Origin: a virus
Virus record (IMG/VR): IMGVR_UViG_3300037238_000069
Span: 1-39,325 of that record
Direction: 5' to 3' (one strand)
Length of the DNA: 39,325 bases
Part shown: piece by piece, positions 6,102 through 29,898 of the stretch
Numbering within the stretch: position 1 is the first letter of the stretch
How the letters are laid out: each line of letters opens with the position of its first letter
Notes under the pieces: model-generated
What the model was told of the DNA's origin: nothing
What the model saw: only the letters and a program-made list of their open reading frames with translations
The model's database searches: none
Translations under genes and position numbers: made by a program

Positions 6102-6193
6102 TGGCATATGATAGACTAGCACTATCGACCTCTTTGCGGAACTAGATATCAATCACAGTGGAACAAAGCGCTCTGCTGCTGAGCTAATATGCC
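6102..6193 (-). tRNA. tRNA-like gene with a 27-nt anticodon loop (20-nt insertion)
   Basis: Read on the minus strand: acceptor GGCATAT/ATATGCC (7 of 7 pairs), T8 A9, D stem GCTC/GAGC around AGCAGCA, G26, anticodon stem CTTTG/CAAAG (5 of 5), a 5-nt variable loop AGGTC, T stem GATAG/CTATC (5 of 5) around TGCTAGT, and discriminator A at 6102 without encoded CCA. The anticodon loop (6163-6137) is 27 nt, exactly 7 plus 20. If the extra 20 nt lay at the classical 37/38 site the loop would read TTCCACG, with anticodon CCA (Trp); this placement is a guess. The D loop lacks the GG pair and the T loop is atypical, but AGCA in the D loop is complementary to TGCT in the T loop. It could be a tRNA with an intron, a decoy or a decayed tRNA. 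Confidence 0.6.
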
Positions 6194-6813: not shown

Positions 6814-8829
6814 TCATGCAACATTTTGATTATTTGCAACTACTTCCTTCTCTGGATTTGCAACAGGACTTATCTCATTCAGAATTTGAACTTGTGTCAG
6901 CAGATGATCTAAATCCATACCTTTCAATTCTTTGAGTGCTTTAACAACATTGAGTAAGCTCGCCGTATCTTCTTGATGAGCGCGACGTAACTTATCTTGA
7001 GCAACCGCACTGTCTGTCTGGATCTTAGCAACACGCTCTTTAGCAAGACCTTCCTGACTATGTGCGTAGGCAACCTTAGTCATATTATCGATTTGGATTT
7101 GCTGCATTTGCAACTCTTCCATTTTCTGTTGCTGTTCTTGCTGTGCTTTCTGACGCGCCATGACTTTTTCCATGATGCGATCTTTATTCTGTATCGTTAG
7201 GCATTCAAGGATTTCATCTGGAGGAGTCAAATCAGGATATAATTGCTGGAAGTGAAGTAACTGAGCTAATTCTAATTGTTGTTGTGTTTCTGTTAATGCT
7301 GCTTGAACAACCTTGCAGCCATATTTAAAGAAGATTTTGCTATCGAATTCAGCTGTAGGCTCTTCACCGATGACTTGACGAACTTTTCCATATGTCCAAT
7401 TCTTTTGGATATATTCTACTTCTATCTCCGCGCATATTCTTTGCGATTCATCGGCTTGATCAAAAAGCCTCTGAAGGTTTCGAGCTGTAGCAGCTTGTCT
7501 CATCATTGTAATGATCCCGGCTTTGTCATCGATATCCATGCCCATGGCATTAGGATCTATACCGGCGATATTGAAAAAGATACCCTTGAGCATCTCTTCC
7601 ATTTGCAACATGACCGGAGAAGGAGGCACAATCGGCATTGGCTGAACGTCATCCATGGAGAAGTCGGGATCAATAGATAGAACTCGACCATGGCCTGAAT
7701 TTAGAGCATCATCTGGAGTAACAAGAGCGCCTTTTTTGACCTTCAAGCCTTGCTGTTGAGCATCGAGGATTTCGAGATTGGAAACCTTCAAACGATTCAA
7801 AAGATATTGACAATCTCTGAGCATAGTCATCGGGCTATTGAACTTGTATGCGTAGTATGGAGTATCCGCAGTGAAGAAAGCGAGCATCGGCACCACGGGG
7901 TAGCGATCCATGCCGTAGGGGTTAGGTTCATCTACAATGACTCTATCATTTAAAATAATGCTTCTGCGTACTGTAGGAACCTGCTTTTTAATTGTAGTTA
8001 ACTTTCCTTTGAAAGCCTGCATAATCTCTTTTAGCTGATCTTTGGTTCCTTGAAATTCTTGGCATTCTTCTGTTTTTTTATCGACTAGGAATGTGGCTTC
8101 TCTGCTTGTCAAATACCAGTATTCATCAAAAGCTATCAAATTTGGAAATTGGATTTGATAGACTTCAGGCATGTAGTAAAATTTGTCATCGCGATAAGTG
8201 CCTTTAGGAAGAGAGAGAATTTCGTCACCAAATTGCGGATACATAAGAGCGGCTTCTTGAGCATCAAAGAAAGTCCTTACCCACCAAAATCTTGCGTCAC
8301 TCATGTCTTTTCGTCTAAAATATGGATCAAAGAGGCATGACTTCATATCTACGTATCGCCAAACCGGATTTGGACTGATAGGATCTTTTGTACTATCACC
8401 ATACATGTACATAAATCCTAAGCCCTGAATGATGGCTCCAAGTTGAAATGCATCACTAAATGTCTGATGGAATCCTTCTTTATGATTATGATAGAGGCAC
8501 TTTGTTAGCTGATCAGCAGTCTTTTGCATTCCATTATGAATAGGAATGACGGCGGAGCTTTTGCGCGTTTGTCTTTGCTGTCCTGATATCGCTTCAGATA
8601 TCGGATTCATGATGTTGAAATTCCAGATTTTGCGTCTATAAGTTGCGACGCCTGGAAAGATTAAACCCCAAACTTCTTGATCATTTATCGTGAATCTTTG
8701 ATTTAGATCGGCTTGATACCATTGTGTTTGTAGAATATTAATACTATCGCTATAATTCTTTTCCATGCTCTGACGAAGAGAGACATTTAAACTGTCTTCT
8801 GGCCAGAAAATAGGGTCATTGTTGCGCAT
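6814..8829 (-). CDS. Portal protein, P22-type (671 aa)
   Basis: The portal is the dodecameric ring at one capsid vertex through which DNA enters and leaves. Length and sequence fit P22-like portals (P22 gp1 is 725 aa): the N-terminal core includes WNFNIMNPISEAISGQQRQTR and MDRYPVVPMLAFF, and a region near residues 420-460 includes IAGIDPNAMGMD and AGIITMMRQAATARNLQRLFD. The last 150 residues form a long Gln/Lys-rich helix (RQKAQQEQQQKMEELQMQQ), corresponding to the barrel helix of P22. RBS GGTGAAAG precedes ATG 8829. It lies downstream of the terminase genes as in other tailed phages. Confidence 0.9.
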   Translation of the reverse strand: MRNNDPIFWPEDSLNVSLRQSMEKNYSDSINILQTQWYQADLNQRFTINDQEVWGLIFPGVATYRRKIWNFNIMNPISEAISGQQRQTRKSSAVIPIHNGMQKTADQLTKCLYHNHKEGFHQTFSDAFQLGAIIQGLGFMYMYGDSTKDPISPNPVWRYVDMKSCLFDPYFRRKDMSDARFWWVRTFFDAQEAALMYPQFGDEILSLPKGTYRDDKFYYMPEVYQIQFPNLIAFDEYWYLTSREATFLVDKKTEECQEFQGTKDQLKEIMQAFKGKLTTIKKQVPTVRRSIILNDRVIVDEPNPYGMDRYPVVPMLAFFTADTPYYAYKFNSPMTMLRDCQYLLNRLKVSNLEILDAQQQGLKVKKGALVTPDDALNSGHGRVLSIDPDFSMDDVQPMPIVPPSPVMLQMEEMLKGIFFNIAGIDPNAMGMDIDDKAGIITMMRQAATARNLQRLFDQADESQRICAEIEVEYIQKNWTYGKVRQVIGEEPTAEFDSKIFFKYGCKVVQAALTETQQQLELAQLLHFQQLYPDLTPPDEILECLTIQNKDRIMEKVMARQKAQQEQQQKMEELQMQQIQIDNMTKVAYAHSQEGLAKERVAKIQTDSAVAQDKLRRAHQEDTASLLNVVKALKELKGMDLDHLLTQVQILNEISPVANPEKEVVANNQNVA

Positions 8830-28251: not shown

Positions 28252-28325
28252 AATGAGAGACAACTCCATTTAGTGTTTTAAAATTCATATTTGCTGTATA
28301 AATTTCACAGACGTCAATGTTAATC

Positions 28326-28373
28326 TATATTGTTCGATATAAGTTTGACTTATAATGTTCAATATGAAACAAT
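28326..28373 (+). promoter_or_regulatory. Promoter/operator region of the excisionase-like/rtcB unit
   Basis: TTGACT at 28345-28350, 17 bp, AACAAT at 28368-28373. Two palindromic boxes lie here: TATATTGTTCGATATA (28326-28341) and TATAATGTTCAATATG (28351-28366). They match the perfect box TATATTGCACAATATA at 14923, and the promoter has the same geometry. Confidence 0.55.
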
Positions 28374-28413
28374 ATGATCTTATGTGATGCAAATAATTAT
28401 GGAGAAAAAAAGC

Positions 28414-28605
28414 ATGAATTATCTTACTGTTGAAGAATTTGCTGAGATCATGAAGATGCATCCAGGAAGCGTCAGAAGAGCCATTAAGGCTGGAAAGATA
28501 TACGCCAGTCGACCCGGTTTAGGTAAAAAGTCGCCCTATAGGATTGCTTATTCTGAATTAGAGAGATTGCATTTACAAAGCATGTGTGAGAACAAAACAA
28601 AATGA
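28414..28605 (+). CDS. Excisionase/MerR-like DNA-binding protein (63 aa)
   Basis: MNYLTVEEFAEIMKMHPGSV-RRAIKAGKI is a helix-turn-helix of the excisionase/MerR type, and SPYRIAYSELERLHLQ closes the domain with the typical wing-plus-helix. ATG 28414 with GGAGA is preferred over two upstream in-frame ATGs. No integrase is visible, so excision is unlikely; a regulator of the rtcB unit is more plausible. The gene precedes rtcB by 28 bp. Confidence 0.75.
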   Translation: MNYLTVEEFAEIMKMHPGSVRRAIKAGKIYASRPGLGKKSPYRIAYSELERLHLQSMCENKTK

Positions 28606-28633: not shown

Positions 28634-29812
28634 ATGAATCTAATTGATGGAATTCCGGTTTGGGGGGATCCTCTACCTGAAGCAGTAGAACAAATGAAGG
28701 AGGCTATGAAGTATGGTGCGATTTACGGTGCCCTCATGGCCGACCATCACATTGGGTATTCTATTCCTGTTGGAGGTGTTATTGCTTACCAAGGGAAGAT
28801 TTGCGTTAACGGCGTGGGATTTGATATTGCTTGCGGTAATAAGGCTGTTATGGTGGATTGTTCTGCTGAACAGCTTAAAGATAACATTTATAGGACGATG
28901 AATGAAATTCAGAGCAAGATTAGCTTTGGAGTAGGAAGAAAAAATGATGAAAAAGTTGAGCATAGCCTTTTCGATGACCCAATCTGGAATGAAATTGAAG
29001 TGTTACAAGGACTTAAAGACAAAGCTAGAACTCAACTCGGTACAGTGGGATCAGGAAACCATTATGTTGACCTCTTTACAGATGAATCAAACAGAATATG
29101 GATTGGAGTTCATTTCGGAAGTAGAGGACTTGGACATAGTATTGCAACACATTTCATAAAACAGGCAGGAGGAAAAGATGGCGTCCACGCAGAGCCGGTC
29201 GTTCTTGATGAGAATTCAGACCTCGGAACCCAATATCTCAAATGCATGGAACTTGCTGGTCGCTATGCTTACGCTGGAAGAGATTGGGTATGTTCACGAG
29301 TGGCGCAAATTCTTCGAGGACAAATTTTGGAAGAAATCCATAACCATCACAACTTTGCCTGGAAAGAGCGACATTTTGATAAAGATCTATGGGTCGTCAG
29401 AAAGGGCGCAACACCATCTTTTCCTGGTCAAAAAGGTTTTGTTGGAGGATCTATGGGAGATATGTCGGTTATCCTCGAAGGAGTTGAATCCCCTGAATCA
29501 GCAGCTTCTCTGTGCTCGACTATTCACGGAGCAGGACGTCTACTTGGAAGAACTCAAGCCAAAGGAAAAACCTGTAGAAAAACGGGAAAGAAGCTCACGC
29601 AAGGTCTCGTCAAACGTGAAGAACACGATATCTGGATTAAAAAAATTGGTGTCGAAGTGCGCGGAGGAGATCTTGACGAATCACCATACGCATACAAAAG
29701 GATCGAAGAAGTCCTCAAAGCGCATGAAGGAACAATAAAGATATTGCATAAATTGACGCCTATCGGAGTTTGTATGGCTGATGATAGATGCAAAGACCCG
29801 TATAAGGATTAA
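28634..29812 (+). CDS. rtcB: RtcB RNA ligase (392 aa)
   Basis: RtcB joins RNA 2',3'-cyclic phosphate (or 3'-phosphate) ends to 5'-OH ends, using GTP and Mn2+. All active-site motifs are present: VGFDIACGN (D64, C67), GTVGSGNH (136-143, N142/H143), VHFGSRGLG (H160), HNHHN (H239), RKGATPS and GGSMG (256-275), and HGAGR (298-302), whose His is the one guanylylated in characterised enzymes. Length matches E. coli RtcB (408 aa). RBS GAGAGGGAAA precedes ATG 28634. No archease or RtcA gene is present. Its reading frame is intact, so an active ligase is expected. Substrate in the phage is unknown; the tRNA-like gene at 6102-6193 is a candidate. Confidence 0.95.
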   Translation: MNLIDGIPVWGDPLPEAVEQMKEAMKYGAIYGALMADHHIGYSIPVGGVIAYQGKICVNGVGFDIACGNKAVMVDCSAEQLKDNIYRTMNEIQSKISFGVGRKNDEKVEHSLFDDPIWNEIEVLQGLKDKARTQLGTVGSGNHYVDLFTDESNRIWIGVHFGSRGLGHSIATHFIKQAGGKDGVHAEPVVLDENSDLGTQYLKCMELAGRYAYAGRDWVCSRVAQILRGQILEEIHNHHNFAWKERHFDKDLWVVRKGATPSFPGQKGFVGGSMGDMSVILEGVESPESAASLCSTIHGAGRLLGRTQAKGKTCRKTGKKLTQGLVKREEHDIWIKKIGVEVRGGDLDESPYAYKRIEEVLKAHEGTIKILHKLTPIGVCMADDRCKDPYKD

Positions 29813-29814
29813 TT

Positions 29815-29898
29815 ATGATTATTTTATTTTGTATTTGTTGTATATTTGGATTTAAAGTTATAGGATTAGCAATAGCATGGTCTATTTTAACTGATTAG
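29815..29898 (+). CDS. Tiny membrane peptide downstream of rtcB (27 aa)
   Basis: ATG 29815 is 2 bp after the rtcB stop, with AAGGATT as RBS. The peptide (MIILFCICCIFGFKVIGLAI, then AWSILTD) is almost entirely hydrophobic. Its stop overlaps the end of the convergent 840-aa gene. A membrane peptide cotranscribed with rtcB is consistent with a small effector or toxin, but size makes certainty low. Confidence 0.45.
   Translation: MIILFCICCIFGFKVIGLAIAWSILTD

Follow-up and report, generated by a model that had tools for sequence, protein, structure and literature searches.

Do a ligase gene, rtcB, and an odd tRNA-like gene that occur in the same small phage genome belong to one RNA-processing system, or are they separate elements? 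An earlier note on this genome had described the ligase as paired with a tRNA that bears an insertion. The window, by which we mean the whole stretch of DNA analysed, comprises the 39,325 bases of an IMG/VR record and has a 127-base direct repeat common to both ends, as expected of a circular assembly; it is therefore probably a complete or nearly complete phage genome. It encodes a P22-like portal (6817-8829, minus strand; Pfam P22_portal, 6.8e-39), a terminase, tail genes and RecT/RecE-like recombination proteins. In the ORFs that were scanned, no integrase could be recognised. The portal gene, for which a search of cultured phages gave no match, is the syntenic anchor for the tRNA-like gene among the relatives compared within the window's lineage. 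A portal 90% identical to that of the window, split in two, was found in a MAG from a bog that carries the label Deltaproteobacteria (G086:C64:8700-10693). It is absent from 7 other members of that MAG's family, and the contig may be a hint of the host or a binning error.

The rtcB gene is an uninterrupted ORF on the plus strand, from the ATG at 28634 to the TAA at 29812, that encodes a 392-residue protein. The protein matches the Pfam RtcB domain at 1.8e-69 (235 bits against a family cut-off of 27) and PHROG 1075 at 4.8e-79. Its predicted structure has a pLDDT of 92 and superposes on the P. horikoshii RtcB-GMP/Mn complex (4dwq) with a Z score of 41.1 over 362 residues at 2.5 Å. The catalytic residues examined, comprising the metal and guanylate ligands (Asp, Cys, Asn, His) and the nucleophile His, are all present. 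In an alignment of 75 phage homologues, in which one row is gapped at D64, residues D64, C67, N142, H143, H160, H239, N240 and H298 are invariant. Family, predicted fold and active site thus identify an intact RtcB ligase, as had been claimed. The dN/dS among rtcB relatives is about 0.13, and the sequences indicate that the protein is under selection for enzyme function. GTP/Mn-dependent sealing of 2′,3′-cyclic phosphate and 5′-OH ends is the activity of this family. Matches to the protein occur in 618 cultured phage records, the closest being Tunturiibacter phage Tunturi_5 (58%). A PrfH-linked RtcB2 was considered and rejected, because the corresponding models match weakly and far below their cut-offs (TIGR03073 release_rtcB, 105 against 271.8; PRK09588, 127 against 407), and no release factor was recognised beside the gene.

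The surroundings of rtcB are those of a cargo site. The gene runs in the direction opposite to that of the structural genes and starts 28 nt behind a gene for an HTH_17 protein (28399-28605, plus strand; Pfam HTH_17, 1.4e-9), which is excisionase- or repressor-like and has homologues at the same locus in relatives. Across 10 related loci of the lineage the HTH gene stands ahead of rtcB, often with other genes between them, among which are genes for an SPFH/Band 7 protein, a Cys-rich protein and a DUF7448 protein. The HTH gene is also kept at this locus in six rtcB-negative relatives, with different cargo behind it, and we therefore regard the locus as a cargo site headed by this gene. In one of the relatives that lack rtcB (G034), the Cys-rich gene, or at least its C-terminal part, and an HNH gene are still present. 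The proposal that rtcB has its own promoter fared poorly, since sigma-70-like matches near rtcB and the HTH gene number 5 against 5.1 in shuffled sequence. The stretch ahead of the HTH gene where a promoter might lie (28304-28373, plus strand) holds matches no better than chance. Given that only 28 nt separate the two genes, rtcB probably uses the promoter of the HTH_17 gene. The tiny hydrophobic peptide reported alongside rtcB was confirmed as an ORF of 27 residues immediately 3′ of the gene (29815-29898, plus strand), with homologues in the same place in L004 and L015.

Several relatives have additional features at or beside rtcB. Homing-type endonuclease ORFs follow it directly at L006:2607-3083, L007:9197-9673 and L008:8344-8580, of the Endonuclease VII/NUMOD3 type in L006 and HNH-like in L008. 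In L053 (3599-5779) a single open frame encodes RtcB with an in-frame insertion of about 300 residues after D-I-A-C, which is intein-like by position and sequence. Pfam shows RtcB parts only in this protein, and a LAGLIDADG-like ORF comes next.

The phylogeny of RtcB points to exchange between phages. Many rtcB-positive contigs of about 40 kb encode a portal only 25-33% identical to that of the window together with an RtcB that is 66-81% identical. Maximum-likelihood analysis places the podovirus proteins in a single clade (support 100/99) that excludes every sampled bacterial sequence except one MAG contig. Members of the window's lineage are scattered inside this clade and interleaved with phages whose portals are 25-33% identical, with at least 4 changes forced by well-supported branches. 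By this comparison, rtcB moves horizontally between unrelated podovirus lineages as cargo behind the HTH gene. An SPFH gene lies near rtcB in seven genomes, four of which are L003, L007, L008 (5964-6809, SPFH/Band 7) and L012, the others being the unrelated L019, L020 and L056; it is absent from the window's own rtcB cassette. An SPFH gene also occurs in L213 (G076), which has no rtcB, about 2 kb from the tRNA-like gene. The rtc locus of P. aeruginosa holds an SPFH gene as well (PMC13086221). In unrelated lineages, 8 of the 22 loci that bear tRNA genes have a canonical one no more than 1 kb from rtcB, where 3.6 would be expected (p 0.018), a modest nearness that, as one of several comparisons, is suggestive and not strong.

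The tRNA-like gene (6102/6103-6193, minus strand) is real, as the earlier reading held. Its RNA forms a four-arm cloverleaf without an encoded CCA, consisting of a 7-bp acceptor (GGCATAT/ATATGCC), a D arm (stem GCTC/GAGC), a 37-nt anticodon hairpin (stem CTTTG/CAAAG) and a T arm (stem GATAG/CTATC). With relaxed filters it scores 45.6 bits against the Rfam tRNA model, whose gathering threshold is 29, although the default scan of the whole window missed it. It reaches 69.7 bits with our own covariance model, of which the window is a member by construction. ARAGORN folds the same site differently, as a tRNA-Ser(act), which is less convincing. The unconstrained minimum-energy fold also differs from the cloverleaf (-27.9 against -24.3 kcal/mol), so that support for the cloverleaf comes from comparison and not from energy. 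Among 14 aligned members, the acceptor, D and T helices are all paired and the anticodon stem is 73% paired. Two-sided changes occur in 12 of 21 pairs, including all 5 pairs of the anticodon stem, and the observed covariation is reached in 0 of 500 shuffles. The structure was derived from the window, itself one row of the alignment, and is somewhat favoured by this, while sliding controls score far lower. Comparative support for the cloverleaf is accordingly strong.

About two dozen distinct members of this family were found. The weaker ones rest on shared sequence and position, because their scores with model R1 (53-64 bits) overlap those of plain bacterial tRNAs (58-60 bits); they were accepted because their acceptor, D and T arms match those of the family, and in most cases also because of position. 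The standard tRNA elbow (G18 and G19 with U55 and C56) is missing from the family: none of 26 members has U55, the position being G in 25 and A in 1, and positions 18-19 are usually AG. Together, these features indicate a real, selected cloverleaf that is unable to act as an ordinary decoding tRNA. One member has ACCA directly behind the acceptor (L111:12523-12526), as if discriminator and CCA were encoded, unlike the other members listed. A conserved, structured-looking element (GTGAGCCCGAAAGGGATGAGAC...CCGCCTCAC) occurs at L084:3050-3106, upstream of 10666 in L095 and downstream of 1994 in L132; it precedes the tRNA-like gene in some genomes and follows it in another. A blastn search with one member as query gave no relatives in cultured phages, and no description of such a family was found in the open-licence literature.

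The supposed insertion lies in the anticodon arm (6127-6163, minus strand), and both folding and comparison among members give a different account of it. In the window, this 37-nt arm is a two-part hairpin, in which a 3x3 UCC/UCC internal loop separates a 6-bp stem from an upper stem, in place of the 27-nt loop with an excisable insert that had been proposed. Across the members compared, the arm ranges from 16 to 67 nt while the acceptor, D and T arms are conserved. It usually folds as a compact hairpin whose sequence is particular to each member. The family has no standard 7-nt anticodon loop in common, and no insert at a fixed site between the halves of a normal loop was found. Since the whole arm varies in length and sequence yet remains folded, the supposed insertion is better described as a hypervariable arm. 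Two nearly identical members (L083:10895-10973 and L163:1501-1579) differ at the tip of this hairpin, with GGC-TTA-GCC in one and GGC-ATC-GCC in the other. We also considered the anticodon loop as an antisense sequence to the phage's own genome and rejected this, the longest match being 11 nt, which shuffled sequences equal (p 0.28).

The distribution of the two genes bears directly on whether they are linked. When 27 rtcB-positive records were searched whole, the tRNA-like RNA was found in 4 (G001, G003, G004 and G008); in 8 others the matches, at 42-56 bits, were ordinary tRNAs, and in 15 the model gave no match at all. Among 50 portal-relative records, many of them fragments, rtcB occurs in G004 and G008 only. 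We then compared the lineage genomes of at least 37 kb, with near-completeness judged by length only. The RNA is present in 3 of 6 rtcB-positive genomes (the window, G001 and G003; not G002, G005 or G007) and in 2 of 8 rtcB-negative genomes (G047 and G049), while G034, G038, G040, G054, G056 and G060 have neither gene. No association is detectable from these counts (Fisher p 0.58), in which the window is counted as a positive despite being the discovery case and which are small enough for a weak association to escape detection. A pattern search added three RNA-positive, rtcB-negative genomes of 36.9-40.0 kb (G076, G077 and G078), which stand outside the Fisher test because they were selected for having the RNA. 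Five near-complete genomes thus hold the RNA without rtcB.

A substitute ligase of the Rnl2 type was also considered and rejected. An Rnl2-type RNA ligase occurs in an rtcB-negative relative, away from the rtcB locus (G054:C1:16819-17331), but this genome itself lacks the RNA, and no such ligase was found in the RNA-positive, rtcB-negative genomes searched. The RNA therefore needs neither RtcB nor an Rnl2-type ligase. The claimed pairing of rtcB with the tRNA-like gene, which lie about 17-22 kb apart, is unsupported because the two genes occur independently, a result close to what the earlier note had itself named as grounds for abandoning it. The distribution, together with the anatomy of the arm, led us to reject splicing of this RNA by RtcB. 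The RNA also offers no intron for excision, and a tRNA endonuclease was not found in the scanned ORFs of the window, as the earlier note had already observed for the endonuclease. The RNA is, on comparative grounds, inherited separately and neither spliced by nor dependent on RtcB. We consider it probable that rtcB is mobile RNA-repair cargo and that the tRNA-like RNA is a separate, non-decoding element independent of RtcB.

What might such an RNA do? One possibility, which we hold to be real though short of probable, is that the RNA alone serves as a decoy that occupies anticodon nucleases or other defence proteins that read tRNAs. The body of the RNA is conserved, while its anticodon arm is hypervariable and yet paired, with two-sided changes throughout the stem. 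The gene follows the portal gene at a distance of 0.4-1.3 kb in the window's lineage, and phages whose portals are unrelated have the RNA too (G076, with a portal 25% identical, and L049). There are precedents as well, in that phage tRNAs are documented to alter the anticodon loop to evade nucleases (PMC10264068) and the tRNA-like domain of YrlA has been suggested as a nuclease inhibitor (PMC7790460). However, variation of the arm would also be expected if another factor recognised only the acceptor and T arms. A rather doubtful alternative follows this line, namely that the RNA acts as a signal, in the portal transcript, for processing or 3′-end formation, with RNase P reading the acceptor and T arms or these arms forming an end structure with a U-run, while the anticodon arm drifts. 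The conserved acceptor and T arms, the position behind the portal gene and the composition of the 6 nt after the acceptor (on average 62% T against 28% background) are consistent with such a signal. Against it, the RNA is also present where the portal is unrelated, several members have terminator-like hairpins with T-runs immediately upstream, and pure drift would lose the pairing that, by comparison of the members, is kept in the changing anticodon stem. Returning to the decoy, we tentatively suggest that this RNA may represent a phage RNA family not described before, a non-decoding tRNA mimic that is mobile, has an altered elbow without U55 and carries a hypervariable anticodon hairpin, evolving as a decoy for or inhibitor of host nucleases that read tRNAs.

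As for the ligase, we propose that rtcB is a mobile cargo gene of podoviruses of about 40 kb that would supply RNA repair in one enzyme. End joining by the RtcB family is established chemistry, and the phage protein would join 2′,3′-cyclic phosphate or 3′-phosphate ends to 5′-OH ends, such as may be left by metal-independent ribonucleases, for example anticodon nucleases. Should tRNAs or other RNA be cleaved by the host in the course of infection, resealing would let translation continue. RtcB would most likely act on tRNAs cut by host anticodon nucleases, where both the RNA that is repaired and host defence as the source of the damage are inferred. Of the repair role put forward in the earlier note, the biochemistry is thus well supported and counter-defence is plausible, while the connection to the tRNA-like gene is lost. 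The outcome proposed here resembles that of T4 Pnkp/Rnl1, which reseals tRNAs cut by an anticodon nuclease; RtcB differs in enzyme fold and chemistry, and it requires no end healing. The window protein belongs to the same family as other phage RtcB ligases (PHROG 1075; in jumbo phages, mycobacteriophages and Tunturi_5), and is set apart by its own podovirus clade, its genome of about 40 kb and its place behind an HTH gene. Repair of tRNAs by phage RtcB has already been proposed for jumbo phages (PMC7824862).

Alternatively, RtcB may serve in rRNA repair, as RtcB2-PrfH is known to do (PMC9223846), make a circular RNA, or work on different ends. It is unlikely that RtcB and the HTH gene, with SPFH in relatives, form a stress- or lysogeny-like module that is of use to the host or keeps other phages out. 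The excisionase- or repressor-like gene at the head of the cassette, the orientation of the cassette opposite to the structural genes and the SPFH partner in relatives would fit such a module, but no integrase was recognised, the window cassette is without SPFH, and SPFH genes are found in many phages. Bacterial rtc operons (RtcR-RtcB-RtcA, with Rsr/YrlA or SPFH) share RtcB with the window and SPFH with some of its relatives, whereas RtcA, RtcR and Ro60, the last sought as a TROVE domain, were not recognised among the window ORFs scanned, which are part of all its ORFs. The Y RNAs of the YrlA type, which mimic tRNAs and are linked to rtc, resemble the window's RNA in being non-coding with a tRNA-like part, but the latter is not linked to rtcB, and in Rfam scans its region exceeded the gathering threshold for the tRNA family only, with no match to YrlA. 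It is very improbable that RtcB splices or reseals the tRNA-like RNA, with the expanded loop as bait or sensor in a single system, for although both genes occur in the window, G001, G003, G004, G008 and L049 and rtcB of other podoviruses tends towards canonical tRNAs, their independent distribution brings this idea close to refutation, and their separation, the folded arm of very unequal lengths in place of a fixed-site intron and the lack of a splicing endonuclease among the ORFs scanned also speak against it.

With rtcB as mobile repair cargo and the tRNA-like RNA as a separate element, the two carry different weight. RtcB is one more phage enzyme for RNA repair, and a role of phage RtcB in tRNA repair had been proposed before. 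The movement of rtcB as cargo among small podoviruses, with SPFH beside it in some relatives, adds weight to the view that phages exchange RNA repair functions. If it is expressed, the tRNA mimic would matter more, as it offers a concrete RNA to test. A conserved tRNA body combined with a fast-changing anticodon hairpin is the trace that would be expected from an arms race with defences that read the anticodon.
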